Origin: Paenibacillus polymyxa
GTDB taxonomy: Bacteria; Bacillota; Bacilli; Paenibacillales; Paenibacillaceae
Reading direction: 5' to 3'
Assembly (NCBI RefSeq): GCF_001719045.1
Contig: NZ_CP015423.1
Coordinates: 2,254,001 to 2,318,000, forward strand
DNA length: 64,000 nucleotides
Position 1 is the first letter of the stretch. Every line of letters starts with the position of its first letter. The notes under the pieces were generated by a model. That model ran no database searches. It had not been told where the DNA came from and was given only the letters and a program-made list of their open reading frames with translations. Made by a program: the position numbers and the translations under genes. Positions 26,756 to 63,905 of the stretch are shown piece after piece.

Positions 26756-26760
26756 TTTAA

Positions 26761-26800: not shown

Positions 26801-26852
26801 TATAAGCGTCTTCACAGGTCGGCCGCCCTGAAGAATTACCGCTCTAAACTAT

Positions 26853-27111: not shown

Positions 27112-27143
27112 CTCAATGAATGTGCACTACTATTATTGTTTAA

Positions 27144-27823: not shown

Positions 27824-27849
27824 AAGTAACTCCTCCTATATATAGTAAC

Positions 27850-27880
27850 AAAAAAGCTACGGACCACTCGTCCATAGCTT
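27850..27880 (-). terminator. terminator after flgL
   Basis: AAGCTA and TAGCTT with inner GGAC/GTCC (minus strand) form a stem followed by TTTTTTG. It lies between flgL and fliW, so flgM-N-K-L can end here. Confidence 0.75.
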
Positions 27881-27906
27881 CAAATTATAAATGTCAAAGA
27901 TAAAAA

Positions 27907-28815: not shown

Positions 28816-28839
28816 GGCTTACTCCACCTTCTCATTATA

Positions 28840-30420: not shown

Positions 30421-30435
30421 GTTTTCCTCCTTCAA

Positions 30436-30936
30436 TTAGGCGCGTGTATCAAATAGTCCCGCTCGTACAGTAGAGGTGCTTTTGTCAGCTGGACGCTGAT
30501 AGACCGCTTCAGATTCCGCATAATATGACATACTCTCAATAGAAAAATCAATATAGGAAAGCGCCTGTTGTATAAGCTGTTGATTCAACTCATTTAATTT
30601 TTTCAATTCTACAAGCGTATCCGCTAGTTTTTTTTGAATTTGAAGGAGGCGCTGCTTGTCTTCTACATCAAACACAAGACGAGACAACTCCGTAATATTG
30701 AGATTCAACTTAGACTTAATACCACGTTCCTGCAAAAATTCATATGCTGCCTGCAGGCGTCGCTCATCCAGCTGTTCAATGTGTCTGGACATCTTCGATT
30801 CCTGGTTCATGACTAGAATGAGCTGATCTACCTTATTTGATATCAGTGCTTCTTTTTTTTGATTCCCTAATGTAATCAACTGCTCGTGAGCCTCTCTAAG
30901 TTGCTCCAGCACATCAATCAATCGCTCTAAAGGCAT
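30436..30936 (-). CDS. flgN: FlgN-family flagellar chaperone
   Basis: A 166-residue helical protein of the FlgN family (B. subtilis YvyG), which holds FlgK and FlgL before export. It shows the long amphipathic helix near the N-terminus (LIDVLEQLREAHEQLITLGNQKKEALISNKVDQL, 5-38) and a second near 95-125. The C-terminal part (YYAESEAVYQRPADKSTSTVRAGLFDTRA) is the flexible tail. The gene lies between flgM and flgK, its standard place, 10 bases after flgM. Confidence 0.88.
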   Translation of the reverse strand: MPLERLIDVLEQLREAHEQLITLGNQKKEALISNKVDQLILVMNQESKMSRHIEQLDERRLQAAYEFLQERGIKSKLNLNITELSRLVFDVEDKQRLLQIQKKLADTLVELKKLNELNQQLIQQALSYIDFSIESMSYYAESEAVYQRPADKSTSTVRAGLFDTRA

Positions 30937-41915: not shown

Positions 41916-42073
41916 TTGGATAATAGCTCCCATCTCCAGTGTATTCAAACGGTTTTATTCCGCACGTGTACTCTATCAATAAACAAAAAAATCCTCTTAT
42001 GTTAATAGACTTATTATATAGGCAAAAGTTACGAAAATCCCGTCAACTAATTCATAAAATCTAAAACGACGAA

Positions 42074-42127: not shown

Positions 42128-42181
42128 AATACTGATTAGTTCACAACTCCAATTATGACCCTATCGGAAGGATTGATAATC

Positions 42182-43591: not shown

Positions 43592-46500
43592 TTGAGTACA
43601 TCGTAAAAAAACGAAAAATTACATTGCTGTTTTTTGTCATGCTGATTTTGGTCGGAATCTTCGGCTTTTTCCAGTTACCACAGCAGGAAATGCCGGATGT
43701 CACCATACAGAATGCTATGGTAACAACAGTCTACCCCGGTGCTTCACCACAAAAAGTAGAACAAACCGTAACCAAAGAGCTGGAGAAACGCATTAAGGAA
43801 GTTGAAGGTGTTAAAACGATTAGTTCGACTTCTGGTAACGGATTCTCCTCTATTTTAATCGAATCCAAAAACGGAGTTGATCCTCAAACGGTTTGGGATA
43901 ATATGCGTAAAAAAGTGCAGGATGCACAAGCTGATCTTCCTCAAGGCGCTGAAGTGCCTGTTGTAAATGACAAGCTAACCAGCTCTTTTATCGGCTCCTA
44001 TGCCCTAACAGCTGACTCTTCCGCACCACTGTATAAACTAAATGATTTAACAACAACTTGGAAAGATCAGCTCAACACCATTTCTGGCGTATCTAGCGTC
44101 AAATTCAATGGTCTCCCTGATCAAGAAGTACGTGTTCATATTGACAACCAGAAGCTTCAGCAATACCAGCTGTCATGGGGACAAGTAGCTCAAGCGGTCC
44201 AGTCTCAAATTGATCGGGTTCCTACTGGTAATATTGAATACAACGGACGTACCTATCAACTTATTGTTCGCGAGACCGAAAAAGCTGATGAATTGAATCA
44301 GGTCCTTTTGACACGCACCAAAGAAGGTAATCCTGTATATTTGAGAGATGTCGGCACAACCGAGCTGGCACATCCTAATACAGAATACTTTGCCTATGTA
44401 GAGGGTAAACCGGCGATTACGCTAAGTATTGGAGCAGAAACAGGCACAGACATCCCTTCTATGAGCGAAAAGGTCAATACCAAGCTCAAAGAACTGGAGA
44501 AAACACTTCCCGCAGGTGTTCACTTTCAAACTCTTTTTGCACAAAAGGATCAGGTAAGCCATATCTTTGACGACTTAAAGCGTGAAACGATTCTTGCGAT
44601 TGCGGCCGTTATTCTCGTTTGTATGTTGGGGCTGAATTTGCTCACCTCTGCATTTGTTGCACTGGCCATTCCTATTTCGGTTTCGATTGCCATTATCTTT
44701 TTGCCTATGTTCGGCATCACTCTAAATCAGATTTCCGTTGTCGGTCTGATCATCGTACTCGGCATACTCGTGGATGATGCCGTAGTTGTAAATGATAATA
44801 TTGAGCGTAGACTTACGGAATTAGGAGAATCACCCTCAGTCGCAGCTGTAAAAGGTACCAAAGAGGTCATGCTTTCTATTTTGGTTGCAACTCTGGCTAC
44901 CATCTCAGCTTTCGCGCCATTGTTGTTTCTTCCTGGAAATGTAGGTGCCTTTATTAAACCTATTCCTGCTATTGTCTCCCTGACCATGCTTGCCTCTATG
45001 ATCATGTCGCTCACCATCATCCCTATTTTTCGAGAATGGTATGAGAAGCGCAGACAGGCTCGTCACCCTCAGGGTAAATCTAAACCAGCAGGCTTGCTCG
45101 GCCAGCAGATTCATTCTTTAAACAAGCTCTATTCACAAAAACTGATGCCTAAGGTCATTCAGCGTCCCTTGTTGACAGCCATGATCGGACTCATGCTTGG
45201 AACAGCCGCCTATGGATTAGTTCCCTTTACCTCAGTTGAACTTTTTCCTGAGTCGGAAGATCCTCATGTTGCACTAAATGTAAAAATGCCTGTAGGCACT
45301 TCAATTGCGGAAACCGACCAGGTCGTTAAAGACCTTGCAGGCTGGGTGAAAAAGCAACCTGAAACTTCCAAGGTCGTCTACAGCGCTGGAGGGACTGCCC
45401 CACAACTGTTTAGTGACATTAATAGTTCGGGTGGAAATATTAGTTATAACGAAACGGTGGGGCAGATTGCTGTCGTCGGCAAAGAAAACGTATTCGATCT
45501 CAATACGACAGTTGATGCTTGGGAACAACATGTTAAGAAATCCTACCCTGGAGTTACAGTTACGATGTATGTTCCTCGTCTCGGGATTCCAGTGGGTAAG
45601 CCCGTTTCTATTCGTATCTCAGGTCAGGATCTGAATGAACTGCAAACCCTTGCCCAGAAGGCAAAGGAGCAGATCGCGACAGTAGAGGGCACAACAGGCA
45701 TCGTGGATGATATAGGAATTGAACGATATGCATTGGACCTTGAGGTCAACAAACAAGCGATGGATCAATACCTGGTAAGCTACACAGATTTGACTCGCAC
45801 CCTGCTTCTATTAAAAGAAGGGGCCCAAGTCAGCCAATTTGATACTGGAAACAGTCTGGTAGATATTAAAATGTATTTGAATCACAGCGACGAGGAACCA
45901 AGTAAGCTTTTCCAACAATTAAGTGTAGTTAATGCAGCGGGTAAGCAAATTCCATTAAACCAGCTTGTCCAGATTAAGCCGTCATTTGCTATTCAGCAAA
46001 TCAAGCATTACAATATGGAGCGGACGATTACGGTGGAAGCCGATTTGAACGGACGAACTGCAAGCGAAGCGATGGTTGATGTTGAAAGTAAGCTGGCGCA
46101 AATGAAGTTCCCAGAAGGCTACAAATGGGAGGTTGGTGGGGAAACCTCTGACCAATCGACCATATTCAAGGACTTAGGACAGCTGGCGATCGTTGTAGTC
46201 TTGCTCATTTTACTCTTGATTACTATGCAATTTTATTCTCTCTCCATTCCTATTATTATTATGACGACCGTGTACCTGGCAGCAGCCGGCGGGATTATTG
46301 GTATTTTCTTGACCGGTATGCCTATTGGTTTTATGAGCATCATGGGAATTATTGCACTCGCGGGCATTGTTGTGCGGAATGGGATTGTGTTAATTGAATT
46401 TATCGAGGATGCACGACATGAAGGAATGGAATTAAAGGAAGCCGTAATACAGGCGGCCGCTGCTCGCTTCAGACCGATTTTATTGACATCTTTGGCAGCT

Positions 46501-46704
46501 ATTGTAGGTATGATTCCATTAGCACTATTGGGAAGCCTGCTCTTTAAGCCACTGGCGTTTACCGTCATTTTCGGTTTGTTATTCTCGACCTTGTTAACCT
46601 TGTTTGTCGTGCCGTCCTTGTATATGATCATGGCCAAGTACAAGATGCGCCGTCAACTCAAAAAACAGCAGCACACAGTTATCACACGTGACCAACCTTT
46701 GTGA
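43588..46704 (+). CDS. RND family efflux transporter (HAE1/AcrB type)
   Basis: A 1038-residue RND pump with the standard two-half layout: TM1, a large external loop, TM2-6, then TM7, a second loop, and TM8-12. Signature segments are VVGLIIVLGILVDDAVVVNDNIERRL in TM4 (both Asp of the proton relay, near residues 396-397) and IIALAGIVVRNGIVLIEFIEDARHEG in TM10, where Arg stands in the place of the AcrB Lys940. It starts with MIEYIVKKRKITLLFFVM. It is proton-driven export of amphiphilic compounds, partnered with the adaptor just upstream. Substrate unknown; the locus is controlled by the TetR gene 55 bases downstream. Related Bacillus pump: SwrC. Confidence 0.92.
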   Translation: MIEYIVKKRKITLLFFVMLILVGIFGFFQLPQQEMPDVTIQNAMVTTVYPGASPQKVEQTVTKELEKRIKEVEGVKTISSTSGNGFSSILIESKNGVDPQTVWDNMRKKVQDAQADLPQGAEVPVVNDKLTSSFIGSYALTADSSAPLYKLNDLTTTWKDQLNTISGVSSVKFNGLPDQEVRVHIDNQKLQQYQLSWGQVAQAVQSQIDRVPTGNIEYNGRTYQLIVRETEKADELNQVLLTRTKEGNPVYLRDVGTTELAHPNTEYFAYVEGKPAITLSIGAETGTDIPSMSEKVNTKLKELEKTLPAGVHFQTLFAQKDQVSHIFDDLKRETILAIAAVILVCMLGLNLLTSAFVALAIPISVSIAIIFLPMFGITLNQISVVGLIIVLGILVDDAVVVNDNIERRLTELGESPSVAAVKGTKEVMLSILVATLATISAFAPLLFLPGNVGAFIKPIPAIVSLTMLASMIMSLTIIPIFREWYEKRRQARHPQGKSKPAGLLGQQIHSLNKLYSQKLMPKVIQRPLLTAMIGLMLGTAAYGLVPFTSVELFPESEDPHVALNVKMPVGTSIAETDQVVKDLAGWVKKQPETSKVVYSAGGTAPQLFSDINSSGGNISYNETVGQIAVVGKENVFDLNTTVDAWEQHVKKSYPGVTVTMYVPRLGIPVGKPVSIRISGQDLNELQTLAQKAKEQIATVEGTTGIVDDIGIERYALDLEVNKQAMDQYLVSYTDLTRTLLLLKEGAQVSQFDTGNSLVDIKMYLNHSDEEPSKLFQQLSVVNAAGKQIPLNQLVQIKPSFAIQQIKHYNMERTITVEADLNGRTASEAMVDVESKLAQMKFPEGYKWEVGGETSDQSTIFKDLGQLAIVVVLLILLLITMQFYSLSIPIIIMTTVYLAAAGGIIGIFLTGMPIGFMSIMGIIALAGIVVRNGIVLIEFIEDARHEGMELKEAVIQAAAARFRPILLTSLAAIVGMIPLALLGSLLFKPLAFTVIFGLLFSTLLTLFVVPSLYMIMAKYKMRRQLKKQQHTVITRDQPL

Positions 46705-49759: not shown

Positions 49760-50338
49760 TTACTGAACAGTGTAACCGCCTCGTACCATAACGACCAGAC
49801 CAAACTTCTGACCTTCTTTTACTTGAATACCTCTTCCTTCTCTAGGAAAGGATAATAAATGATTTTTTTCGACAGTCTGATTATGGACAATTTCCGTTCC
49901 AGAAGTAATATCAATAGCACCACTGGCATCCATACTATACACAACGGCATAACCATTACGTAAAATAAACTCTGACCCTGCTTTGGCAATCAGTTTTTGA
50001 CCAGGCTTTACATCAACTACCTTTAAAGCCTCTGTCTGCTCTGGTGTGGAAGTTTTCCCTGCACCAGAAGTTCCTGACGCCGATGGGTTAGAAGTAGCGT
50101 TTGTTGCTGGAGTAGTCGAACTAGTTGCTTTACTACTCGTGTTACTTGCTGGTACTCCACCTTTGATGGCCTGAGCAATTTTTTGATCAACATAGCTTTT
50201 GGTTACGACTGGATCATCAGCTGTTCCAGGTTGACCAGAACTGGAGGCTCCATTTACTGAATTGTTCATCAAAGAGCCAGCCAAAATTCCTCCTCCAAGT
50301 AAAACAGCAGCCAACGATACTTTATAGCGTGATTTCAT
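49760..50338 (-). CDS. secreted protein of unknown function
   Basis: A 192-residue exported protein. It begins with MKSRYKVSLAAVLLGGGILAGSLMNN, a signal peptide or membrane anchor, followed by DDPVVTKSYVDQKIAQAI (about 41-58), a Ser/Thr/Ala/Gly linker (60-100), and a compact beta-rich C-terminal domain (about 105-192: VVDVKPGQKLIAKAGSEFILRNGYAVVYS...REGRGIQVKEGQKFGLVVMVRGGYTV). I do not recognise the domain. GGAGGAC lies 4-5 bases before the ATG. It follows the TolC-like gene by 45 bases without a terminator, so the two are probably co-transcribed and may act together. Confidence 0.7.
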   Translation of the reverse strand: MKSRYKVSLAAVLLGGGILAGSLMNNSVNGASSSGQPGTADDPVVTKSYVDQKIAQAIKGGVPASNTSSKATSSTTPATNATSNPSASGTSGAGKTSTPEQTEALKVVDVKPGQKLIAKAGSEFILRNGYAVVYSMDASGAIDITSGTEIVHNQTVEKNHLLSFPREGRGIQVKEGQKFGLVVMVRGGYTVQ

Positions 50339-50383: not shown

Positions 50384-51922
50384 TTATTGTGCGCTAGCTC
50401 CAGAAGAACCCTGCATAGCCCAAGGCTTATTGAAAGCCAGCTTCAAAGTATCAATATTTGTAACTATATCTTCGGCCTGTTGCTCAGCAGTAGTGACTTT
50501 CAAATTAGCTTCATAAACCTGAAGCTCTGTAGCCAACCCAACATCAAATTGCTTCTTAGCCATATCAGCCGCACTTCTAGCACTCACCAAGCCAGCTTGA
50601 ATCTGTGAATATTGACTTTCCAATGCTTTGATATTGTTATAAATTGTTCTTACAGCTTCTTCGAGTTGTCTCTTTGTGCCTTCTGTAGCATACTGAGCCT
50701 TTTCAACATTAAGTTGTTCAGCTTCATAAGGGGTATTTCCTGGAGTGCTAAAGTTATAAAGCTTCAAACTCAATTCAGCCAAATCCACTTTTTGCTCACT
50801 CAACCAAATAGCCGTGCTGCTAGTAAGTACTTGGCTTACTTTTGTCTCTACATTATCTTTAAACTCAGAATATACAGGTTTATCCTTTAATTCATAACGT
50901 TGCTCTGGTTTGTAACCAATCACTTGGTTCAAAGATACATATGCACTATCTAAATCTTTTTTTGCCTTCTCTAAAGCAGCTTGATTTTGAGTCAACTGAT
51001 TAGTCGCTTGCGTGACCTCATAATCACTCGACATTTGATTATCTCTCTTGATTTGCGCAACTTTAAGTTTACGTTCAGCATCTTCAATATTCAATGCAGC
51101 CAGCTTAACAGCATTTTGCTTTTGAAGGAGCTTGTTATAGAGATCCTTCACATTATATTCAATACCTTCTTTGGTCATTTCAAGGCTCTTTTTGGTTGCC
51201 TCATAATTAAGATTCGTTTGGGCATAACCTTTGTAAGCTTTATCTTGCGCCTCATTACCTGCTTCTGCTGGAACAAAGTCAATATTTTTTCCTGTTTCTT
51301 TCATAATTTTTCCTGCCTGGTCAATATTCACTTCTCCTGTTTTCACTGAAGCACTATCAGCAATAGCCAGTTTGACTGCATCATCATAGGTCAACGAATC
51401 ATTATAATAGGTATCATAAGTAACTTGAGTCACAGGAGTTGTGAGAGGCTTACTGGACAAACTGTTGGTTTGGTCGTCAGTAGTACTGCCATTAGCTTGA
51501 TTGGAAATGGTCACTGTTCGTGTAGCCTGATCCCAATTTACTTTGGCGCCTAATGATTGGCTCACAAAACGTAAAGGAACGAGTACTTGACCCTTTTGAA
51601 TTTGAGTTGCTGCATCGAGTTGTACAGGATTACTATTTTTATAAGCAAGCTTGGAACCAACATTCAAAGCCAATGTATCTTCATTTTTAGAAGCAGTTAC
51701 TTTTTTAGCTTTGCTGTCCCAATCGACTTTCGCACCCAAGCTTTCAAAAACACCACGGAGAGGCACCAAGGTTGTATTTTGACTAACAACTGGGGACTGG
51801 GTATATTGCTGTGTTACACCGTTAATAATAACCTTTATATCACCTGGTTGAGCTCCTGCAAGACTGGCGAACGCAGAAGAAAGAACCAATGTGGACAGTA
51901 CTGCCACTCCAAAACGTTTCAT
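50384..51922 (-). CDS. TolC-family protein fused to a stalk domain
   Basis: A 512-residue exported protein. After a signal peptide (cleavage near SLAGA-QP) comes a copper-amine-oxidase N1-type stalk domain (about 27-145, with TTLVPLRGVFESLGAKVDWDSKAKKV and LVPLRFVSQSLGAKVNWDQATRTVTI). From about 175 to 500 it follows the outer membrane efflux protein (TolC) pattern: SLTYDDAVKLAIADSASVKTGEVNIDQA, the long helix ending ...LDSAYVSLNQVIGY, the repeat YATEGTKRQLEEAVRTIYNNIKALESQY, and KKQFDVGLATELQVYEANLKVTTAEQQAEDI. Gram-negative TolC spans the outer membrane; here there is none, and the beta-barrel strands seem short or absent. AAAGGAG lies 7 bases before the ATG. Confidence 0.8.
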   Translation of the reverse strand: MKRFGVAVLSTLVLSSAFASLAGAQPGDIKVIINGVTQQYTQSPVVSQNTTLVPLRGVFESLGAKVDWDSKAKKVTASKNEDTLALNVGSKLAYKNSNPVQLDAATQIQKGQVLVPLRFVSQSLGAKVNWDQATRTVTISNQANGSTTDDQTNSLSSKPLTTPVTQVTYDTYYNDSLTYDDAVKLAIADSASVKTGEVNIDQAGKIMKETGKNIDFVPAEAGNEAQDKAYKGYAQTNLNYEATKKSLEMTKEGIEYNVKDLYNKLLQKQNAVKLAALNIEDAERKLKVAQIKRDNQMSSDYEVTQATNQLTQNQAALEKAKKDLDSAYVSLNQVIGYKPEQRYELKDKPVYSEFKDNVETKVSQVLTSSTAIWLSEQKVDLAELSLKLYNFSTPGNTPYEAEQLNVEKAQYATEGTKRQLEEAVRTIYNNIKALESQYSQIQAGLVSARSAADMAKKQFDVGLATELQVYEANLKVTTAEQQAEDIVTNIDTLKLAFNKPWAMQGSSGASAQ

Positions 51923-51949
51923 AATTTCTCTCCTTTGTCAATAAGACTA

Positions 51950-51978
51950 ATAAAAGAAAAGGGCTCCAAAAGGAACCC
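51950..51978 (-). terminator. terminator between the stalk-domain and TolC-like genes
   Basis: GGGTTCC and GGAGCCC (minus strand, one T-G pair) form a 7-bp stem with a TTTT loop, followed by TTTTCTTTTATT. It lies about 45 bases past the stop of the 52022 gene and may pass some transcripts through to the next gene. Confidence 0.75.
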
Positions 51979-52021
51979 TCTTCTCATCTAATTCAGTTAA
52001 CTCAAAAGAGTTGCTCTTAAA

Positions 52022-54415
52022 TTAGTTGTTGTTTTCAACAGTTACTGTTTTAGCAGTTGCATCATAGTTGATGGATGCATCCAGCGCTCTGCTCACCCAG
52101 AAGATAGGCAGTACAGTACGGTTTTTGTTAGTTACAGCTTTAACGTCCATACGAACCACAGAACCGTTAATAGTCAACAGGTTTGTGTTCAGTTTGATTT
52201 GAGCAACGCGGTCACCTTTAATCAGGGTAACTGTGGAAGTTGCTTTGTCAAACAGGATGTTTTGTGGGGATACACCCAAAGCTTCAGCTGCATAACGTAC
52301 TGGCAAGTAAGTGCGTCCGTTTTCAGCATAAGCAGCTACATCAGAAGTTTTACTTTCGCCGTTCACAGTGTAGGAAGTGCTTCCCAGTGTGAAGACAGCT
52401 TTAGTTTTAGTAGCACCTGGAGCTGGAGTTCCAACAGTTGCGATTGCTACTTCAGCAGCTGCAGTGTTGTTGTCTTTCCAGTTTTGAGTGTTGTCAGTTG
52501 CGCCTTTGTATGCAGTGTAAGAAACTGCGCTACCTTTCAGCTTAGCAACGATGTCGCCTTGAGCTACAGTACGGTCAACAGTCAGCTTAGGAGCCGAGAT
52601 TGTGATTGTACTTGGAGTAGCAGATTCGCTATCGATGTAGAAGCTCAGACGGCCTTTGTTGCTTTCGCCGTAAGTATCAGTAGATACGCTCTTCACTTTA
52701 ACGTCACCAGCTGTAACTTTTACTTCTGGAGTAGAAGCAAAACGTACGCCTGTTGGCAATTCCAAGATTACTTCACGGCTACCATCTTTCTTAACGAAAG
52801 CTTCTTTAGCAGCTTCAGTGATTGTGATATCGCCAACTTGTTGATCGCCCAGACCGATTGTCAGGGTTGGTTTGGAAGCAGCAGCCAGAGTAACTGCTTG
52901 TTTCACAGTTGCAACCTTAACATTACCGCTCAAACCTTGGCTACCAGCAACTTCAACGTTCAGATCGCCAGAGAAACCTGGTTGCGTAGCAACTTCAACG
53001 TTTCTCAGTTTCAAAGTACCAGCATCAGTTGTGCTGTTAGGGTTGTTGAAAGTCAGTTTCAAAGTACGTTTGTCAGAGTCAGTGTAAGATACCTCTGCTC
53101 CACCCAATCCGTTGGTATTTTCCATAGAACCAGCGAAGCTGTTTCCTGGGTTGTTACTCTTGAAAGTTTCCTGCCAACGAGCACCTTCAGGCAGACGCAA
53201 AGTTACAGTACGTCCTTTTACAAAAGATTTAGCAACAGTTTCTTTAATTACGATATCGCCAACTTTTTGTTCGTCATGCCCAGCAAGAATAGTTGTTGGA
53301 GTAGCAACAGTAACTCCACCACCGATTTCGCCATAGTTACCAACAACAAGAGAGCTAACATCAGTTGTTGCGTTACCAGAAACGCTAACAGTAACATCGC
53401 CTTGTTTAGCATTTGTTTCATCATCTACATGGAATTTAACTGGCAATTGGAAAGAATTTTGTTTAGAGCTTTTCACAGTATCTTTCAATCTTACAGTAAG
53501 AGTATCACCATCAGATTTAGCATCAATGTCAGCAGCTTTTATATCACCAAAAAGAATTGCTGCTGTACCGGAAGCATCCCATTTAAAACCACTTGGCAAT
53601 TTCAACTTGATATAGTTACTACCTGTCAAAGAACCTGCAGTTTCCTCTTTAACTTTCAATGTTGCAGTGAAGTTATCTTCACTGGAAACTGTGTCGTTTG
53701 CAGCAAGAGAAACTTGACCAGAAGAAACAACGTTTGCGATTGTAATTTCACCGCTAGTCAAACCGCTATTGGAAGCTGCATCAATAGCTGCTTTAACTGG
53801 ACCGTTACTTGGACCAGCTACATTAATTCTACTAAAGTTCAAGAAGAGAGTAACATCATCTTTAATGTTATCTTGACCCGTAAAAGTGATTTTTGCGGAG
53901 TTTACGTTAACTGGTTTACCATCAGTGTCATAATTGTTGATGATTGGAGCAACTGTAATACCAGTATCTTTATTATCATCAAAATCAGCGTATACACCCA
54001 AGCCATAAGTAGCATCACTTACACTACCTGGGCCATTTTGTGTTCCAGTTACACCAGCAATTTTCGCAACATCGCTACTGTTAAAATAAAAACCTTTAGG
54101 CAAAGTAACAGTAAAAGAAGATCCATCTCTTACAGAAGCTTTGCTCACTGTAATTTTCACTCTGCTATCAAGATTTGTGAAATTTTCAGCGTTTCCACTA
54201 ATAGTAGGAGTATTCACAGTTGTGAAACTAGAAGATGCATGGATAGCAGTTGGTGCAGTCAGTGCTGCGATTGGAGCTGCAACACCAGCAACCAATGTTG
54301 CTGTTGCCAGCACGTTGATCATTTTTTTATTAAACTTTGTCATAACCTTTTTTTCTCCTCCTTGAATATAACCAGAAATATTATTTTTGTCTTTTTGTCG
54401 GATCTTGTCACTCAT
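52022..54415 (-). CDS. large secreted stalk-domain protein (S-layer-like)
   Basis: An abundant-type exported protein, 773 or 797 residues by start. From ATG 54343 it reads MTKFNKKMINVLATATLVAGVAAPIAALTAPTAIHA, a normal signal peptide, with AAGGAGGAG 11 bases upstream. The in-frame ATG at 54415 has an even better site (AAAGGAGGTG, 9 bases) and would add 24 charged residues before the signal. The mature part is a series of beta domains (about 40-650) rich in Val, Thr and Lys, with repeated GDITI/V-E and T-L-R-L-P-E/E-L-P-T-G-x-R-F motifs. The C-terminus (about 690-797) is a copper-amine-oxidase-type stalk domain (TYLPVRYAAEALG, TVLPIFWVSRALD). No SLH domain or catalytic motif. Tandem promoters and a long leader suggest heavy expression. 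Confidence 0.85.
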   Translation of the reverse strand: MSDKIRQKDKNNISGYIQGGEKKVMTKFNKKMINVLATATLVAGVAAPIAALTAPTAIHASSSFTTVNTPTISGNAENFTNLDSRVKITVSKASVRDGSSFTVTLPKGFYFNSSDVAKIAGVTGTQNGPGSVSDATYGLGVYADFDDNKDTGITVAPIINNYDTDGKPVNVNSAKITFTGQDNIKDDVTLFLNFSRINVAGPSNGPVKAAIDAASNSGLTSGEITIANVVSSGQVSLAANDTVSSEDNFTATLKVKEETAGSLTGSNYIKLKLPSGFKWDASGTAAILFGDIKAADIDAKSDGDTLTVRLKDTVKSSKQNSFQLPVKFHVDDETNAKQGDVTVSVSGNATTDVSSLVVGNYGEIGGGVTVATPTTILAGHDEQKVGDIVIKETVAKSFVKGRTVTLRLPEGARWQETFKSNNPGNSFAGSMENTNGLGGAEVSYTDSDKRTLKLTFNNPNSTTDAGTLKLRNVEVATQPGFSGDLNVEVAGSQGLSGNVKVATVKQAVTLAAASKPTLTIGLGDQQVGDITITEAAKEAFVKKDGSREVILELPTGVRFASTPEVKVTAGDVKVKSVSTDTYGESNKGRLSFYIDSESATPSTITISAPKLTVDRTVAQGDIVAKLKGSAVSYTAYKGATDNTQNWKDNNTAAAEVAIATVGTPAPGATKTKAVFTLGSTSYTVNGESKTSDVAAYAENGRTYLPVRYAAEALGVSPQNILFDKATSTVTLIKGDRVAQIKLNTNLLTINGSVVRMDVKAVTNKNRTVLPIFWVSRALDASINYDATAKTVTVENNN

Positions 54416-54534
54416 CAGTCGTTACACCTCCTTTCCGAGCTTTATGAGAACCCTTATAAAATGATATCTGTGACAATATCACAGAAGCTTGGAATCTAGT
54501 TGAAAGAAAGCGTCCATTTATGACGTACTCCAGT

Positions 54535-54563
54535 ATTATACAATGTGATAACAATGCAGTAAA
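54535..54563 (-). promoter_or_regulatory. proximal SigA promoter of the stalk-domain gene
   Basis: Minus strand: TTTACT (54558-54563), 17 bases, TATAAT (54535-54540, perfect). The leader to the first start is about 110 bases and contains a TGATAT/ATATCA hairpin near 54460. Confidence 0.75.
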
Positions 54564-54713
54564 GATTTTTTTTAGCGAATTTTGTCTTTACGCTTTTGTA
54601 CCCCTTTGTTTCATACTCACCCAATTAGACGTAGCATGGGTTCAAAAAGTTGCGTCCGTTTCAAAAAAATTTTTATTTTTTTTTGATTATGTATTCCGCT
54701 TTCCACAGTCATA

Positions 54714-54743
54714 ATTATACTATTGAACCTGTTCCTCCGTCAT
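54714..54743 (-). promoter_or_regulatory. distal SigA-like promoter of the stalk-domain gene
   Basis: Minus strand: ATGACG (54738-54743), 18 bases, TATAAT (54714-54719, perfect). It lies 180 bases upstream of the proximal promoter. Confidence 0.5.
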
Positions 54744-54958
54744 CCTACAACTTTTACCTTCTCAACCTTAAATGTACAAGGGTTATTTTCGTACATCTAA
54801 GTCGGTCTTTAATGGAGTATATTCGTTAAGAATTATCCATAGAATATATAAAGTACATAAAGTCTTATAGATTCCCTTGAAATCTAATACTCTAATACAC
54901 TTTAAGTAGTAGGAATGACGGAGTAACAGTGATTTACGGTATATATAACCGAGACAAA
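54744..54958. other. rest of the intergenic region after the adaptor gene
   Basis: No gene is seen. The stretch is AT-rich; CGGTATATATAACCG near 54938 is a small dyad 20 bases past the adaptor stop, without a T-run, so a terminator for the adaptor gene is not evident. Confidence 0.4.
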
Positions 54959-56305
54959 TTACTTCACTACATTAATCTTCGCGCCATCCGTAAGCAGACT
55001 AACGCCCTTAACGACAACATTTTGTCCTTCAGCAAGCCCCTTGGTTACCTCAACCTGTTTGGCACTTTCCTGGCCTGTCTGCACTTCTACCCGCTTAGCC
55101 ACTGTTCCTTCCACTACATAAGCATACTTTTTCCCTGCCTGCTCCGTAATGGCATCCTGCGATACCAAAATGTTTTTAGGAGCTTCTGATTTCATGTATA
55201 CAGTTACAACCATCCCTGATTTTAATTCGCCAGAACCATTAGGAACTGATACCTCAATAGGGTATGCCTTCAGATCATTATCCATTACCGGATTGACAGC
55301 CGATACTTTGGCCTCAATTCGCTTATTTAACGAGTCCACACCTACAGTCACAGATGAACCCACCTGCAACTTAAGAAGCTCAGATTCAGAAACGTTAACT
55401 TTTGCAATAATAGGATTGGTATTCGCTATTGTAGCAACCGCAGATTGTGCACTAACCATTTGCCCCTGTGTTCCTGTTACTACCGATATCGTGCCGGAAA
55501 TTGGAGCTTTGACTACAGTATCCACCAATTGACTACGAGCTGTGTCTAAACTGGACTTAGCCTGATTGACAGAAGCACGAGCTACGTCAATGCCCGTTTT
55601 CTGTTGTGCAAGACGTAATGATTTTTGAGCATTATTATATGTTGTTTGCGCACTTTCCTTAGATGTTTGTGCATTATGAAGTGTGATCTGTGCATTCTCC
55701 ACCGCAGTTACAGCCCTTCTATGCGCTATTTGAGACTGCTCTAACTCGGATTGAGAAAGAGCACCCGCACTAAACAGCTGTTGGTTGCGATTGAGCGTAT
55801 TTTGAGCATCACGCACGGAACTCTGAGCATCTACCAGACTGGTCTGAGCTTGAGTGATCGTGTTGTCTTGCTGGACAAGCGCACTTTTGGCTTGATCCAC
55901 GCTGGATTCTGCCTGCTGCACCGATTGCGCTGCACCTGACTCTGCCTGCTTTAAATTGGCCAGGGCAACCTGATACGACTCTTGGGATTGCTTAATCGAG
56001 TCCCGCAAGTCCTTTTGGTCTATAGTAAACAATGTGTCGCCTTTATTTACTTTTTGGCCCACTGTAAGGTTAATACTTTGAATTTTACCACTAATTTTCG
56101 GAGACACCTGAGCTGTCTCTTTGGGAGCAAAGCTTCCAATAATACCTGTTGAATCGTTAATACTACCTTTAGCCACTTTTGCTACTTGAACTGGAATGGC
56201 TTGCTGCGCCGTAGTTGGTGCGGCAGGGGCCTCTCCCCCACCGCAACCCGCTAATGCAACTGATAAAAGCAAAGTTGTAGCAATCAGAGCACTTTTTTTA
56301 TTCAT
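54959..56305 (-). CDS. RND efflux adaptor lipoprotein (membrane fusion protein)
   Basis: A 448-residue adaptor with signal and lipobox (SVALAGC), so it is lipid-anchored outside the membrane. Order: lipoyl half (VAKVAKGSINDSTGIIGSFAPKETAQVSPKISGKIQSINLTVGQKVNKGDTLFTID), a long alpha hairpin (about 100-255, Gln/Ala/Ser-rich heptads), the second lipoyl half (VKAPISGTISVVTGTQGQMVSAQSAVATIAN), beta-barrel and membrane-proximal domains to KINVVK. The start is ATG 56305 with GGTGGAG 7 bases upstream; the longer frame overlaps the pump gene. It follows the pump by 19 bases, the reverse of the order in the 42-kb operon, and is only distantly similar to that adaptor. Confidence 0.9.
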   Translation of the reverse strand: MNKKSALIATTLLLSVALAGCGGGEAPAAPTTAQQAIPVQVAKVAKGSINDSTGIIGSFAPKETAQVSPKISGKIQSINLTVGQKVNKGDTLFTIDQKDLRDSIKQSQESYQVALANLKQAESGAAQSVQQAESSVDQAKSALVQQDNTITQAQTSLVDAQSSVRDAQNTLNRNQQLFSAGALSQSELEQSQIAHRRAVTAVENAQITLHNAQTSKESAQTTYNNAQKSLRLAQQKTGIDVARASVNQAKSSLDTARSQLVDTVVKAPISGTISVVTGTQGQMVSAQSAVATIANTNPIIAKVNVSESELLKLQVGSSVTVGVDSLNKRIEAKVSAVNPVMDNDLKAYPIEVSVPNGSGELKSGMVVTVYMKSEAPKNILVSQDAITEQAGKKYAYVVEGTVAKRVEVQTGQESAKQVEVTKGLAEGQNVVVKGVSLLTDGAKINVVK

Positions 56306-56324
56306 TATGTTTCTCCACCTCACC

Positions 56325-59300
56325 TTATATATGAACACTTTTTTGTAGTTTCGCTTCTTTTTTTAATTCTCTCTTCGCTTGTCTTTTTAATTTCCGATTC
56401 TTACGTTTTTGTATCATATTATCCATGATGACGTAGACTACCGGAATAAGAATCAATGTAATAACAGCTGCGAAGGATAACCCGAATACAACAACAACTG
56501 CCATCGGTGCTTGTGTTTCGTTACCCTCTCCTGTAGCGAATGCCATTGGAAGCAAAGCTAGTACAGTAGCCAGCGTGGTCATCAAAATCGGACGCAACCG
56601 CTCAGACGCTCCATGAATAATAGCTTCATCCCGATCTTGGCCGTCTTTTCGGAGCTGAATTATAAAGTCAATCATAACTATGGCATTGTTGACGACCAAA
56701 CCGACGAGCATGATGTAACCCGTCAAAGCTGAAACGCTGAGACTCGCCCCGGTTACAGCTAAACCGATAAGCACACCAATTACCGTAGGTGGAACGGAAA
56801 ACATAATAACAAACGGTGTGAGCAACGATTCGAACTGTCCTGCCATAACCATATAAATGAGCACGACAGATAGTAAAATAGCTATCGCCAAGTTCGTAAA
56901 GGACTCCAGCATTTGTTCATTTTGTCCACCACCCGTATCTGCACTGTAGCCTTCAGGGAAGTGAGTACTCTTCAAAAGAGCATCTATTTTTTGATTAATA
57001 GTAAGAATATCCCCTGTTCCATCAATATCAGCTGTAATCTGCACTTGACGCGTTTGGTCTTCACGAGTAACAGTATCGGGTACAGTCCGTTTATCAATAC
57101 TTACTACGGAAGACAAAGGTACATCAATACCTTGCGATGTGGTAATCCGTAAGGCTTTTAGATTTGACAAATCATGGCGGTTTTGCTCTGGCAACGATAT
57201 CTTCACATCAATCTGATCCTCACCTGTACGATAGCTTGTGGCGACTGATCCATTAAAAGACGTATTCACTGCTGATAAAATTTGAGTTGCTGATAAGCCA
57301 TATCGACTTGCAAGTTCCCGATTAACGGTAATCTCATATTCTTCGCGAACGGCACTCAAGGTACTTTTCACATTGACCGTACCCGGTATGTTTTTTACGT
57401 CCGCAACGAGATTGTCCGAGAGTTCTCTCAGGACGTCAATATCGTCACCTTTTAAGTTAATATTAACAGCCGCTCCGCTTGAAAGACCTGTTGTAGACGC
57501 CATTGTAATCTCTGCATCCGGAATGCTATCAAATTTTTTACGAAGGCCCTCAACTACACCATCTGTTGGCTGATGTCCATCCTTCAGCGTTACGCTTAGA
57601 TCCGCCGAATTAGTTGGAGCTGCCCCTGAATAACCAGAATTGCCACCAGAACCAACAGTCACTGTCATTTTATCTAGATCCGGAACTTTCAAAATTTCTT
57701 TTTCTATATCTTGAACAACCTTTTCCGTTTCTTCCAAGACCGTTCCATTAGGAAGTTTCACGTTAATTGTGAATTCCCCAGTATCAGATGCTGGGATAAA
57801 TTCAGCCTTAACGAAAGAAATTAGAGATCCAGCTGCCACAAACATCAATAAAGTAATGATTAACACAGATTTTCTATGGTTAATTCCCCACTTCAATACA
57901 CGGCGATACCCACCCTTAAATTTCTCAAAGCCAATATTAAACCACACAATAGGGTTAACACCCTTATAAGTACCTGAAGAATAAATGGATTCATCTGGCA
58001 CGGTAGGTAGCCAACGTGAGCCCAGCATCGGCACAATCATAAGGGATACAAGCAAGGCTGCAATGTGAGAGAAAATAACGGTTAACGCCAACGGTTTAAA
58101 TAGAACTCCCGCAATTCCGTCAACAAAAACAACTGGTAAAAATACTACGATCTGCGCAAGTGCAGATGCCATAACGGCATTACCCACCTGCTTGGAGCCA
58201 TCAATAGCCCCTTGTAGCATGCTTTTCCCTTCATGTCGCTGTCTAAAAATATTCTCAATAATAACAACAGCAAAATCGACAAAGGATCCTAACCCCAGAA
58301 GCAAACCGCTCAGTGAAATAATATTAATGGTTTGTCCGGTGAAATACATCATCATAAACGTAGCTACGAAGGAAATTGGAATAACGATAGTAGCAATAAT
58401 GGTAGAACGTATACTATTCAAAAATAATAGCAACACAATAGCTGCGATAATAAGTCCCAGTATAGCATGCTCTACTAATGAGTGTACGGAGTCGCTAATG
58501 GGTTTGGATGCATCTGTTACCATCTCCAATTGAGTTCCCGGAGGCAATTCCTTCCGTATCGAATCTAAACTATCCTTTACAGAATCGGCGATTGAAAGGG
58601 TATTCCCCCCTGTAGCTTTAGTAACAGAAATATTGATACTTGGCTTTCCGTTATAGGTAGAAATGGTTGTAACATCATCCAAGGAATCTTCAACTTTCGC
58701 GATGTCCTTTAGCTTAATGCTTCCCTTCCCTACTGGAATTGGCGTTTCACCCATTTCTGAAACAGCTTTGTATTCACCTTGAACCCGAAGTTGGATTTCT
58801 GTATTGCCTCGGTACACCGAACCAGCAGAACCCGCTACGTTATTAGACGATAGCGCTTGGCTGATTTGATCTAGCGTAATGCCATAGCTTTGAAGTTTGG
58901 CTTGATCTACGGTAATCTTCACAAGCCGAGCTTGCCCACCTGACATGTTGGCTGCAGCTACTCCCGCAATTCTTTCAAGCCGCGGCTCAATAATATCTTC
59001 AGCAATAGGCTTCAACTTGTTAATATCCTGGTCTCCTGTAAGAGAGAGCGTAATAACCGGCGTTGCGTTGAGATCCACCTTAAGGACACGTGGCGAATTA
59101 GCCGCCTTGGGAAGTGACCCTTTAACCCCATCAACTTTATCTCGCATGTCGAGGGTTGCTTGATTGATATCTACTCCCCAGTTAAATTGAATCATGACCA
59201 TAGATGTTCCTTCTGAAGACTCGGACATGACTTTATCCACGTTCTCAATAGAAGCCAGACTTTTCTCAATAGGTTTAGTAACCAATTCCTCAACTTCTGT

Positions 59301-59462
59301 AGGCGTTGCATTTGGAATACTAGTCACCACTGCAGCGAATGGCAGCTTCATATCCGGCATTTGCTCTACAGGAAGTCTTAACGCAAAAATACCGCCCCCG
59401 ATTAACAAAGCAATAATTAACATAAATACTGTTACAGGACGGCGTATTGAAAACTGAGACAT
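56325..59462 (-). CDS. RND family efflux transporter (SwrC-like)
   Basis: A 1045-residue RND transporter with the usual 12 membrane segments and two large outer loops. It begins MSQFSIRRPVTVFMLIIALLIGGGIFALRLPVEQMPDM, typical of the HAE1 branch and of Bacillus SwrC/YerP (surfactin self-resistance and swarming). In TM4 the relay motif reads GLGSFVDFAVVIIENIF: one Asp is kept and the second is Phe. In TM10 the Lys position is Asn (VGLVVNNAIVMIDFI). The pump at 43588 keeps both Asp residues. The start is ATG 59462 (GGGGAG 7 bases upstream). It is co-transcribed with the adaptor at 54959. Lipopeptides made by Paenibacillus are plausible substrates (inference). Confidence 0.92.
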   Translation of the reverse strand: MSQFSIRRPVTVFMLIIALLIGGGIFALRLPVEQMPDMKLPFAAVVTSIPNATPTEVEELVTKPIEKSLASIENVDKVMSESSEGTSMVMIQFNWGVDINQATLDMRDKVDGVKGSLPKAANSPRVLKVDLNATPVITLSLTGDQDINKLKPIAEDIIEPRLERIAGVAAANMSGGQARLVKITVDQAKLQSYGITLDQISQALSSNNVAGSAGSVYRGNTEIQLRVQGEYKAVSEMGETPIPVGKGSIKLKDIAKVEDSLDDVTTISTYNGKPSINISVTKATGGNTLSIADSVKDSLDSIRKELPPGTQLEMVTDASKPISDSVHSLVEHAILGLIIAAIVLLLFLNSIRSTIIATIVIPISFVATFMMMYFTGQTINIISLSGLLLGLGSFVDFAVVIIENIFRQRHEGKSMLQGAIDGSKQVGNAVMASALAQIVVFLPVVFVDGIAGVLFKPLALTVIFSHIAALLVSLMIVPMLGSRWLPTVPDESIYSSGTYKGVNPIVWFNIGFEKFKGGYRRVLKWGINHRKSVLIITLLMFVAAGSLISFVKAEFIPASDTGEFTINVKLPNGTVLEETEKVVQDIEKEILKVPDLDKMTVTVGSGGNSGYSGAAPTNSADLSVTLKDGHQPTDGVVEGLRKKFDSIPDAEITMASTTGLSSGAAVNINLKGDDIDVLRELSDNLVADVKNIPGTVNVKSTLSAVREEYEITVNRELASRYGLSATQILSAVNTSFNGSVATSYRTGEDQIDVKISLPEQNRHDLSNLKALRITTSQGIDVPLSSVVSIDKRTVPDTVTREDQTRQVQITADIDGTGDILTINQKIDALLKSTHFPEGYSADTGGGQNEQMLESFTNLAIAILLSVVLIYMVMAGQFESLLTPFVIMFSVPPTVIGVLIGLAVTGASLSVSALTGYIMLVGLVVNNAIVMIDFIIQLRKDGQDRDEAIIHGASERLRPILMTTLATVLALLPMAFATGEGNETQAPMAVVVVFGLSFAAVITLILIPVVYVIMDNMIQKRKNRKLKRQAKRELKKEAKLQKSVHI

Positions 59463-59814: not shown

Positions 59815-62800
59815 TTAGATTTTAGGAAGCAGCTTTTTATCAGCCATAACTTTAGCTACAATAATGGCTGCATCTCCACGTAAGGTCAGAGAAGTAGGAT
59901 TAAACATATATCCTTTTTTCAGATCGCTTGCATCAACAGGTGAACCCGTAATAAAGCCTTTCTTGGCAATAGCCAATACAGATGCCTGTGCATAGTAATC
60001 AATTTTGTCCGCATCTTTAAAGGTCTTAGACAGATTCTTCATGATCTTGTCATGATCTGTTTCAAGCTTCAAATTCAATGCCTTAGCGATAATGACTGCT
60101 GCATCTTGGCGTGTGATTACATCTTCCGGCATAAAGATTCTTGGTTGCGAACCTTTGACAATACCAGCGCGTGCAGCTGTTTCAATATAACGATAATCAT
60201 AGAGCGCATCTGCTGATATCGTATTTGGAATAGACACGTCGTCAAAATGCTTCGCTCCGCTGAAATTAAGCGGAATTTGCAGACCTTTGACGATCATAGA
60301 CGTAAATTCGCCTCTTTTAATGTAGCTGTCAGGTCCAAAGCTATTAATTGGATCCATTGGGTTCATGACACCTTTAGCCAAAATGGCTTCGATGTAATCT
60401 CTGGCGTATTTGTGCTTAATGACATCACTATACGTTTCTCCAACTTTAGCAACTACATAGTAACCGAAACGATCAAACGGTACTTTAATGGTGTGTTTTT
60501 TCGGATCCACCACACCACCAATGTTCTGCCAGTCTTTAAGATCAGAATCAAAATAGAACACCGACATTTGTTTCCCTGCATCCTGAGCAATACTGCTATC
60601 ATACGTCAGCGTCAATGTAGCACGCTTGGAAGGTACTAGCTCGTTAGATGGGTCACGCCAGTAGAAGTTTTTGATCTTGCTATTGTCATTTTGCGATTTG
60701 TTAGCCAATTGATATGGATCAGCACCATATGTCACCGGATCGTAAGCATCCGTTTTGATATCATCTGCGGTACCAGGGTCAATCCAGAATACCGGACTGG
60801 ACTTGGTAAAGCGACTTGGAAAATCCCGGTTGAAATATTTACTTCCATCTGCGATCAAGCTCCGCATATCGGACAATGCTTTTTCAGTTTCAAATTCATG
60901 ACGATCTACCACACCATCTTCGCTATTTGCTATCGCAAAGTACAAAGTATGGCCAGAGAAAACCTGGTTTTTGAATTGCTGTGGTTGATCGTAATCCCGG
61001 CGAATTAGACTCGTTCCCTTCGCAAAAGCAAGTGTAAGATTACCATCGAACACTTTGTGCGATGTTTTCATCGCTTCCATGTACTGCTCGCCAGGGATAT
61101 TAGTAGGCACATATTTAACAGTAATAGTCTGTTTCAGTTTTTCTTTGCCTACAGTAACCACTACATCAATTTTATTATCTTTGTTGGCTTTTAGACCTGT
61201 AACGATGGCTTTGTAAGTTGATGGATAATCAATGGTGCCATCATAATCAGAGTCGAAACCCTCTTGAACTGCTGTTTCTTTACCTACCGTAACACTATCT
61301 GCATTACCTGCATTTACAACAACTTGCACAAAGTTTTGATTCACGATTCTCTTTTCAGGGAGTGGACGCAAAATATCAAAAGATGTGGATTGACCGGATA
61401 CTTGCAGTCGGAAAGTAGCAAATGGTCCGCCCTTGCCGCTATTGTACAAGGTAATGTTATAAGCTACTGGTGTTCCATCTTGCGAAATAGTTTGGTTTTT
61501 CAACACAAAGCTGAAATACTTTTTATCCGGATGGTAGTACACAAGCAGGTCTTTTAAATCTTTATTTGTAAATTTATCTGTAGTAGAACCGGAATTGTAT
61601 GTTGTCTTAGCATCTTCTGCTGAGAAAAACTCGTTACTCAGTGTCCAGTTGACTTCACTGTCATCCGATCCCTTAATCTCCAAAATATATTGATCTTTAT
61701 TAGCAATATCACTTAACGAACCATTTACCTGATCTGCTTTACCCAAATCAGCAATACTGAAAGTACCAAATACATTGATATTTTTCAGAGATGTATTGTA
61801 GTTGGTGTCATCCACTTTGGTGAAATTAGCATCTTTTGATTTCGGAGCAATTTCGCTATATTTCGGCGTATTGCTCAAGCCGCTAACTGGTGTAAAAGGG
61901 ATGATTCCTTGTGTGTTGGGAACAGGAATTACTGGAATATTCGTCTGTGTAAAGTTTACTTTTACCGTATTGCTGTACTCAATACCTGGCTTGTATACAA
62001 ACTTGATTTCATTATTTCCGTTCGCCAAGGCATTGGCTGCGGCTGTCTCCGAGGAAGCAGCAAGCTTGAAGTCCGCTCCTGAACCATCCAAATCAACCAA
62101 TACATTATTAATATACAGAAATACATTTCGGTTACTTCCAGTGTAATGAATATCTGCTGCGTTGCTCACATCAAGTAATTTACCTTTAAAGTTGCCCAGC
62201 TGAGTCAATTTATAGGTATTCAAGTTTGAGCTGGATGTATTCAACGGAATTTGTTGCCCATCATAAATCGTGTCGTATTTCATGAACGGACCCTGCAACA
62301 GATTCACCGTAGCTTTAATTAACTTGGTCGAATCACCATTCAGATAAAAATTCAGTACATTTTGTCCTTCTTTAGGCAAAGTGTCTACATAAGCAACAAT
62401 TTTCTTCACTTGCGTTGACTTACCATTAATTGTACGAATCACATCTTGAGGCGACCCTACAGTATGAACCGTTACTCCGGAAAGCTCACTAATTGAAGAA
62501 GGTGCACCATTAACAACGATAAACTCCATACCTACGGGTACAGATGCAGCATCTGTAGTCTTGTTCTTCATAGAGCTACCTGTTAATTTCATAGCTTCAT
62601 CTAGGGCAGCTGCCTGATCAGACCCGCTTCCTTTAGTTCTGTTCAACAATTGAGTATTAAAATCAGGAAGATAGTTAACATCATCAATATACGGCTGAGT
62701 GCTGCTGCGCAATGTAAATTGGACAGCCGATGGAGCTGGAGGTGTACTGCTATCCGTATAAGTTATGCCCAGGGATGCTCTGGTCAAATGATCAAGTACA

Positions 62801-63834
62801 GCTTCCGAAGGTACAGTCACCTGAAATGGATATACTTTATAACCATTTGATGTAACTACATTTGCAGTATCAATTGTGGCATCAACCCCAGTCGCACTAC
62901 CTACAGCACTACCATTGTTACTCACATCGGTAAAACGTGCATTGATTGTGGCCACTCCTGGATCGGTTGCACCGCCTGGCACCAAAACATTACCTTTTAA
63001 AACCACACCACTTGTAGACGATACGGTAAAGTCAGGCGAAGTGGTCAAATCAGCAGAAACATTCCCATCCTTATTCAGGGTCAAATCAGAGAATTCCGGT
63101 TTACCCGTATAAATCGTAATTTCACGTGTAACTGTGAGGGCCTGAGTTCCGTTGCCCACTTTAATAGTCACTATATTTTTACCTGGACTGAGTACCACAC
63201 TACCTGTTAATTTATATGCGGTATAAGAGTTAACTGTATACGTATTACTGCTTTTTGCAGACGTGAGCGTTACACTGTCAGCATTAGGAGCCGTACCTTG
63301 AATGACTACTTTCACATCATCCGTACCGCTATTGCGTGCGTCTGTCAGCACCGCTGTCTGATTCTCAAGCAACTGCTCGGTTTCACCATTCAACGTAGCA
63401 GATAGATCATAAAGCTTAGGCCCATCCTGATACTCAATGTAAATGGAGTCCTTCATATCAGCCGAATTTTGGCTACTTTGAAATGTAATCCGGTTCAAAC
63501 CAGGAAACAGTTTAATGTCTGTAACTTTAAGCGTAGAGCCACTGACTGTAATTCCGCCTTTTTGACTCTCGTTCTTATTAACCACGTTAAGGTTTGTTCC
63601 ATTTTTAGAGAGTTGGAATACACTATAAGATATAGTACTTCCGTTCACTCCGTTAATCGTACCGTTAACTGTAACTCGGTCAGTGTTTACCATTCTAGCC
63701 GAATCCACATCATATTTTTCACTTGGAAAAATAAAATAAGTTCCCGTCGCAGCATGAGCCGTACCTACCAGGGCCGCCGGCACCAAGCCAATGATGAGAC
63801 CAACCGTCAGCAACATGGATAGCAATCGTTTCAA
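59815..63834 (-). CDS. S-layer-type protein with three C-terminal SLH domains
   Basis: A 1339-residue exported surface protein. The start is TTG 63834 (AAAGGAGG 8 bases upstream; the ATG between them is out of frame and stops at once): MKRLLSMLLTVGLIIGLVPAALVGTAHA, a clear signal peptide. Residues about 30-1130 are a string of Ig-like or beta-sandwich domains (repeated G-x-A-P-N-A-D-S-V-T-L, N-x-I-x-V-x-V elements) with no catalytic motif. The last 200 residues hold three SLH domains: YSDVIKHKYARDYIEAILAKGVM...GEFTSMIVKGL, FDDVSIPNTISADALYDYRYIETAARAGIVKG...RQDAAVIIAKAL, and FKDADKIDYYAQASVLAIAKKGFITG...RGDAAIIVAKVM. SLH domains bind pyruvylated wall polymer, so the protein coats the cell. 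Monocistronic. Confidence 0.92.
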   Translation of the reverse strand: MKRLLSMLLTVGLIIGLVPAALVGTAHAATGTYFIFPSEKYDVDSARMVNTDRVTVNGTINGVNGSTISYSVFQLSKNGTNLNVVNKNESQKGGITVSGSTLKVTDIKLFPGLNRITFQSSQNSADMKDSIYIEYQDGPKLYDLSATLNGETEQLLENQTAVLTDARNSGTDDVKVVIQGTAPNADSVTLTSAKSSNTYTVNSYTAYKLTGSVVLSPGKNIVTIKVGNGTQALTVTREITIYTGKPEFSDLTLNKDGNVSADLTTSPDFTVSSTSGVVLKGNVLVPGGATDPGVATINARFTDVSNNGSAVGSATGVDATIDTANVVTSNGYKVYPFQVTVPSEAVLDHLTRASLGITYTDSSTPPAPSAVQFTLRSSTQPYIDDVNYLPDFNTQLLNRTKGSGSDQAAALDEAMKLTGSSMKNKTTDAASVPVGMEFIVVNGAPSSISELSGVTVHTVGSPQDVIRTINGKSTQVKKIVAYVDTLPKEGQNVLNFYLNGDSTKLIKATVNLLQGPFMKYDTIYDGQQIPLNTSSSNLNTYKLTQLGNFKGKLLDVSNAADIHYTGSNRNVFLYINNVLVDLDGSGADFKLAASSETAAANALANGNNEIKFVYKPGIEYSNTVKVNFTQTNIPVIPVPNTQGIIPFTPVSGLSNTPKYSEIAPKSKDANFTKVDDTNYNTSLKNINVFGTFSIADLGKADQVNGSLSDIANKDQYILEIKGSDDSEVNWTLSNEFFSAEDAKTTYNSGSTTDKFTNKDLKDLLVYYHPDKKYFSFVLKNQTISQDGTPVAYNITLYNSGKGGPFATFRLQVSGQSTSFDILRPLPEKRIVNQNFVQVVVNAGNADSVTVGKETAVQEGFDSDYDGTIDYPSTYKAIVTGLKANKDNKIDVVVTVGKEKLKQTITVKYVPTNIPGEQYMEAMKTSHKVFDGNLTLAFAKGTSLIRRDYDQPQQFKNQVFSGHTLYFAIANSEDGVVDRHEFETEKALSDMRSLIADGSKYFNRDFPSRFTKSSPVFWIDPGTADDIKTDAYDPVTYGADPYQLANKSQNDNSKIKNFYWRDPSNELVPSKRATLTLTYDSSIAQDAGKQMSVFYFDSDLKDWQNIGGVVDPKKHTIKVPFDRFGYYVVAKVGETYSDVIKHKYARDYIEAILAKGVMNPMDPINSFGPDSYIKRGEFTSMIVKGLQIPLNFSGAKHFDDVSIPNTISADALYDYRYIETAARAGIVKGSQPRIFMPEDVITRQDAAVIIAKALNLKLETDHDKIMKNLSKTFKDADKIDYYAQASVLAIAKKGFITGSPVDASDLKKGYMFNPTSLTLRGDAAIIVAKVMADKKLLPKI

Positions 63835-63905
63835 ATCATTGTCCTCCTTTGATTCTGTCGCACCTTGGGGTACGTAATCATTCAATACTTTTTTTATCGG
63901 TAGTA

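Follow-up and report, generated by a model that had tools for sequence, protein, structure and literature searches.

In the tripartite exporters AcrAB-TolC of E. coli and MexAB-OprM, an RND permease works with a lipobox adaptor, the tip of which carries the motif R-x3-L-x6-S, and with a duct of the TolC fold that ends in an outer-membrane beta barrel. For the MacAB-like pumps of Streptococcus, adaptor hairpins have been proposed to bridge the wall of a monoderm cell; no TolC-like protein is known to belong to these Gram-positive pumps. The main text of Stubenrauch et al. (2022; PMC8809574) presents 12 selected TolC-like proteins of monoderm Firmicutes, many of them encoded in operons with an adaptor and a pump. 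According to that text, every example species has surface-layer (S-layer) or putative S-layer genes, the C. difficile protein was modelled with an omission in its beta barrel, and a wall/S-layer model is drawn. Here we analyzed 64,000 nucleotides of Paenibacillus polymyxa (assembly GCF_001719045.1, contig NZ_CP015423.1, positions 2,254,001 to 2,318,000; hereafter the window, with coordinates counted from its first letter), in which the gene for a TolC-like protein fused to a stalk domain, here called the duct (512 aa; 50384..51922, minus strand), lies in a block with genes for an RND permease, an adaptor and a big stalk-domain surface protein (BIG). We assign a probability of roughly 0.55 to the reading that the products of this block form a tripartite exporter in a cell lacking an outer membrane, with the duct seated in the wall or coat. 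The locus resembles those described in the main text of PMC8809574 in having an OEP protein without an outer membrane, an adaptor and a pump nearby, a missing barrel part and a proposed seat in the wall or S-layer. The permease, lipobox adaptor, tip motif and TolC fold of AcrAB-TolC and MexAB-OprM recur, whereas the outer membrane and beta barrel are lacking, a stalk domain is added and the adaptor hairpin spans about 168 residues.

The duct protein has a signal-like start, a stalk domain at residues 33-139 (PF07833, Cu_amine_oxidN1; E 1.1e-36), a low-confidence linker at 143-173 and a barrel-less TolC domain at about 175-505, with PF02321 (OEP) matched in two stretches (74.7 bits versus a cut-off of 22; E 1.1e-20). 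These matches bear out the fusion of TolC repeats to a wall-type stalk that an initial annotation had read from the DNA. In the predicted structure of the monomer, the TolC part adopts the fold of a TolC alpha-barrel protomer instead of a plain coiled coil, and the longest helix spans 76 residues. Loops of 3 and 11 residues stand at the barrel positions; strands of the kind that insert into an outer membrane are absent from the TolC part of the model, where short pieces occur at the domain start only. Lacking membrane-inserting strands, the protein is TolC-like and not an integral outer-membrane factor. In the main text of PMC8809574 the modelled change is an omission in the barrel domain; the present model lacks both strand hairpins. 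The host was taken by the initial annotation to have no outer membrane; in agreement, Omp85 had no match in this genome or in 75 congeneric genomes (0/75), and the same search was positive in 7 of 14 control genomes. Duct orthologues 88-93% identical occur in Paenibacillus ottowii, terrae (two), brasilensis, maysiensis, farraposensis and one more species, and database orthologues at 93-96% identity carry the name P. polymyxa, which puts the host in the P. polymyxa complex. Public names of the orthologues are 'TolC family protein' or 'stalk domain-containing protein'; one orthologue (P0054) is named 'Laminin subunit alpha', and naming in the family is inconsistent.

Upstream in the block lie the AcrB-type RND permease (56325..59462, minus strand; PF00873, 818 bits) and the adaptor, a membrane fusion protein (54959..56305, minus strand; TIGR01730 RND_mfp, 224.5 bits versus a cut-off of 94.9) with its ATG 19 nt past the RND stop. 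The sequence of the adaptor shows a lipobox (LAGC), and by our own delimitation its long alpha hairpin has arms of 78 and 90 residues, about 168 in all; the hairpin of AcrA is much shorter. The motif R-x3-L-x6-S, which defines the TolC-docking type of adaptor tip, was present in all 22 orthologues examined. This tip motif is named in a figure legend of PMC8277102. The pump, the lipid-anchored adaptor with its long hairpin and the big stalk protein nearby, all named in the initial annotation, were thus recovered with PF00873, with TIGR01730 and the LAGC lipobox, and with PF07833, respectively.

Conservation of the set was followed in the 75 congeneric genomes (about 10-11 candidates per genome scored for RND and for two further genes, A and B) and in 255 genomes of the Paenibacillaceae (4 candidates per genome for BIG, up to 12 for OEP). 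BIG was called at E<=1e-40, and the search for gene A covered the genus only; with few candidates scored per family genome, misses are possible. OEP matches were found in 18 of the 75 congeneric genomes, and the order RND-adaptor-BIG-duct held in 18/18 (the window and 17 fetched loci, the fetched duct-type loci being a part of the OEP matches, chosen among the matches listed), three of these loci having a duct identity of only about 45%. The same order was seen in all three fetched loci of a second genus, g15. Because it recurs in 18/18 and 3/3, gene order is conserved above chance, and genes for permease, adaptor and OEP protein share a conserved neighborhood. Co-occurrence was strict: an RND orthologue of at least 69% identity was present in exactly the 18 OEP-bearing genomes (18/18 versus 0/57), and the 57 congeners without an OEP match all have a distant RND protein (at most 33% identity among the matches listed). 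The expectation that pump and duct genes travel together across genomes was thereby upheld, with a canonical adaptor tip in addition. In the family, BIG was called in 13 of 255 genomes and OEP matches were found in 26 (25 over the cut-off), with all 13 within the 26; the 13 belong to three genera, and the remaining 13 OEP genomes are without BIG. Association of BIG with OEP gave a Fisher p of 4.6e-15, with kinship ignored and the 13 genomes in 3 genera. Since adaptors too can give OEP matches, the figure of 26 is a ceiling for genomes with TolC-like genes, and TolC-like ORFs were read in part of them; L071, L072 and L073, fetched for OEP matches, hold adaptors and no TolC-like open reading frame (ORF) at the match itself.

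BIG (52022..54415, minus strand) comprises tandem Ig-like domains and a C-terminal PF07833 stalk domain; its likely start is 54343, preceded by a strong ribosome site. The same slot holds an S-layer-type (SpaA-like) gene, gene A, in 57/57 duct-less congeners, and no gene A was found in the 18 duct-bearing congeners among the candidates scored. The slot is bordered upstream by a gene for a protein with S-layer homology (SLH) domains (59815..63885, minus strand; PF00395), a homologue of which was seen in most fetched loci (in L027, L077, L083 and L098 it lies outside the stretch or was unseen). Paenibacillus alvei SpaA (PMC6081394; PDB 6cwc) provides the reference: the gene A protein of one duct-less congener, the single one compared, matches the SpaA SLH region at E 1e-52, whereas BIG, in the same slot behind a homologous leader, has a stalk domain instead of an SLH match. 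In L088, gene A of G080 is broken near its start by one in-frame TGA. The BIG leader (54419..54684, minus strand; conserved blocks at about 54625-54684 and 54419-54574) was compared by blastn with the leaders of gene A, and 12/12 matched at E<=0.01, 10/12 of them at E<1e-4 (best 7e-11; the weakest, L081 and L085, only at 0.010), versus 2 of 139 control upstream regions. Besides the window, this comparison took in 14 of the other 26 BIG loci, and its controls were taken upstream of mechanically called ORFs, spurious ones included. Given the same slot and a homologous leader, an S-layer gene seems to have given way here to a cassette of coat, duct and pump genes. The S-layer link in the main text of PMC8809574 is co-presence in a genome; here it is an apparent swap at an S-layer locus. 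Codon bias, as a proxy for expression, points to a highly expressed BIG, with an effective number of codons (Nc) of 36.1 (median of 27 BIG genes, 36.2), compared with 38.2 for gene A (13 genes), 37.8 for flagellin and 45.4 for metK (23 genes). From locus, leader and codon usage we propose that BIG is a coat protein. Classical work is said to have described a regular layer of Bacillus polymyxa; among the top matches of open-licence PMC full texts, we found no paper on a P. polymyxa surface layer.

Further gene orders at the slot bear on the history of the cassette. All three BIG loci of g15 read RND-adaptor-BIG-duct-B-SECR-metK, where SECR is a small secreted protein; this order looks like an intermediate, with the cassette in the place of gene A and B retained. 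B encodes a secreted protein (about 900 aa, Ig-like matches weak). The idea that the duct excludes this gene, which is found in 0/18 duct-bearing genomes of the genus, was dropped since B stands beside the duct in 3/3 loci of g15. The notion of BIG as strictly bound to the pump was likewise rejected, because in another genus, g7, all six fetched slots (L095-L097, L101-L103) read SLH-BIG-SECR-metK, with no pump or duct in the slot.

Should the block encode an exporter, the duct would form a trimer standing tip to tip on an adaptor hexamer, and its three stalk domains would hold the tube by its collar to the wall or a surface coat. That coat would be built largely by BIG, driven by the promoter of the former S-layer gene, and substrates of the RND pump would be released beyond wall and coat rather than into the wall space. 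We infer the direction of export, as we do the oligomers, their docking and their place. With the locus conserved beside metK, a general housekeeping role or export of the detergent, lipid or antibiotic type seems likelier, judging from gene context, than a role for one dedicated product. Tentatively, these steps may be joined in a wider proposal, which we regard as possible: that polymyxa-type and macerans-type Paenibacillus have exchanged an SLH S-layer gene, behind its own promoter, for a stalk coat, a stalk-TolC duct and an RND pump, and so have a coat with pump-driven exits, a functional stand-in for outer membrane and TolC that evolved in a monoderm.

The initial annotation had treated the genes as one block. 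They are probably not one transcript, as a gap of 543 nt with a promoter-like site (TTTACT-17-TATAAT; 54535..54563, minus strand; 10/12 matches, suggestive only) precedes BIG and a terminator-like stem stands before the duct gene, so two or more transcription units are probable. The stem, found by scan and in the sequence, lies in the spacer between BIG and duct (51954..51985, minus strand), has 14 pairs and a T-rich tail, and suggests partial read-through from BIG into the duct gene. The gap ahead of BIG measures 417-544 nt in 21/21 loci. Between BIG and duct the gap is 99 nt in 14/21 loci and 3 nt in L098, and this spacer has a folding energy of -28 to -47 kcal/mol in 20/21 loci, L098 being the exception (no shuffle control was run). 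A single operon from pump to SECR was rejected on these long gaps and stable spacer folds. The scans were no richer than shuffled sequence (21 promoter-like sites versus 23.0 expected; 8 terminator-like sites versus 8.0), and single sites are thus merely suggestive.

Several results weigh against a fixed exporter built into a BIG coat. RND-adaptor and BIG-duct resemble separate transcription units, and the duct (Nc 42.8) is more codon-biased than the pump genes of the window (54.5, 56.9), so that amounts may not match. In the g7 slots BIG stands without pump and duct and so can do without both there, an argument against coat and duct as a fixed unit. L071 (G144:C31:214000-231000) has another copy of the RND and adaptor of the window type, with neither BIG nor duct alongside. 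BIG shows no SLH match (Pfam, E<=1; only PF07833 exceeds its cut-off), and Foldseek and VIA comparisons of its fold gave no S-layer protein among the matches listed, a result that rules nothing out. A common stalk domain was rejected as proof that duct and BIG are paired, as the two stalks share 25% identity, less than the 31% between the duct and a 916-aa phosphodiester-glycosidase (NAGPA) protein with stalk domains (39198-41948, minus strand; divergent, near a second RND-adaptor pair). The tip motif is absent from the adaptors of ABC-type TolC operons in one group (0/8) and found once in another (1/21, outside the tip); with 0/2 MFS-linked and 6/24 remaining adaptors, it was discarded as a rule for all TolC-linked adaptors, and since ABC-type adaptors mostly lack it, it cannot serve here as a rule for which adaptors use a duct. 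Few clades underlie the correlations (three genera in the family, probably a single clade in the genus), so that the perfect correlation across the 18 genomes of the genus may be one event. At 1.5 A per residue, the duct would add about 11 nm and the adaptor hairpin 12-13 nm to the pump. A Gram-positive wall is some tens of nanometers thick, which duct and hairpin together may or may not clear.

Some of these observations would suit a duct that is primarily a component of the coat, its stalk-TolC trimers forming pores or pillars in the BIG layer without fixed coupling to RND. The duct gene lies directly behind BIG, at the spacings given above, its codon bias falls between that of the coat gene and that of the pump (54.5), and the pump genes seemingly form their own unit. 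Against this, RND and OEP genes were never separated among the 75 congeners, the adaptor tip of TolC-docking type was kept in 22/22, and related TolC-like genes without a stalk lie in pump operons. The last point comes from the seven PF02321 matches of this genome, which fall in three TolC-like proteins and two cross-matching adaptors: the two TolC-like genes other than the duct, with their relatives, show the order TolC-adaptor-ATPase-MacB in 29/29 fetched loci holding one. A duct serving chiefly the coat thus strikes us as doubtful.

The TolC of E. coli serves several pumps, and the duct could likewise be an exit tube common to several, with the adjacent RND pump as one client. The window contains a second RND-adaptor pair (42155-46704, plus strand, followed by a TetR-type regulator to 47662) without an OEP neighbor, and an RND-adaptor pair typed like this second one is adjoined by an OEP-matching TolC-like ORF in six loci fetched from other genera (five divergent and one, in L076, on the same strand; PF02321 in 3/3 checked in Pfam). 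Both further TolC-like genes of the genome have their own adaptor and ABC pump, however, so dedicated pairing looks like the rule and a shared exit is unlikely. Still less probable is that the RND pump acts by itself, in the way proposed for the SwrC-type pumps of Bacillus, with duct and adaptor left over from diderm-derived genes. Here the distant RND proteins of all 57 OEP-less congeners speak for a lone pump; against it, the duct frame is whole in 17/18 genomes (the 18th, L040, is cut at a contig end), and the residues that bear the duct fold and those of the adaptor tip are kept down to about 45% identity. A non-tubular coiled coil with a TolC likeness from heptads only is scarcely credible beside the modelled TolC fold, even if long helices match many coiled coils and the adaptor itself weakly matches PF02321.

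For the tripartite exporter, we place what is new narrowly. The initial annotation had not seen a TolC path through a thick monoderm wall described; the general idea is not new, as it is stated in PMC8809574. The main text of that paper has no occurrence of 'Paenibacillus', 'stalk' or 'copper amine', that of PMC5007114 has no 'TolC', and among the top matches of open-licence PMC full texts no paper was found that describes TolC fused to a stalk or the replacement of an S-layer gene by a cassette of this kind, which does not prove that none exists. What is new thus appears to be the fusion to a stalk and the swap of genes at the S-layer locus, TolC tubes in monoderms being already known. If the exporter is real, the published guess of TolC ducts in monoderm S-layers becomes a genetically tractable case, in a soil Paenibacillus that can be cultured and has the genes for pump, adaptor, duct and coat next to one another. 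Such a case would reveal a way of routing efflux across a thick wall and of replacing one surface layer, exits included, by another, a matter of interest for the monoderm/diderm question.

The secreted protein that the initial annotation had linked with the duct is SECR (49760..50338, minus strand), encoded downstream of the duct. It is indeed a small protein, with a signal-like start (start motif PGTADDPVVTKSYVDQ), and its gene lies one step away from metK in the loci that were read; a special pairing fell away, and with it a role as fourth pump part, as a SECR match is present in 75/75 congeners whether or not a duct is. SECR has no Pfam match, its C-terminal part included. Elsewhere in this genome, an RND-type frame (G000:C1:4922461-4925562) contains two in-frame stops, and RND frames containing stops also occur in several congeners. 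At the other end of the window, a 3700-codon open frame (1375-12477, plus strand) lies near apparent flagellin glycosylation and flagellar genes (13097-30936, from translations).
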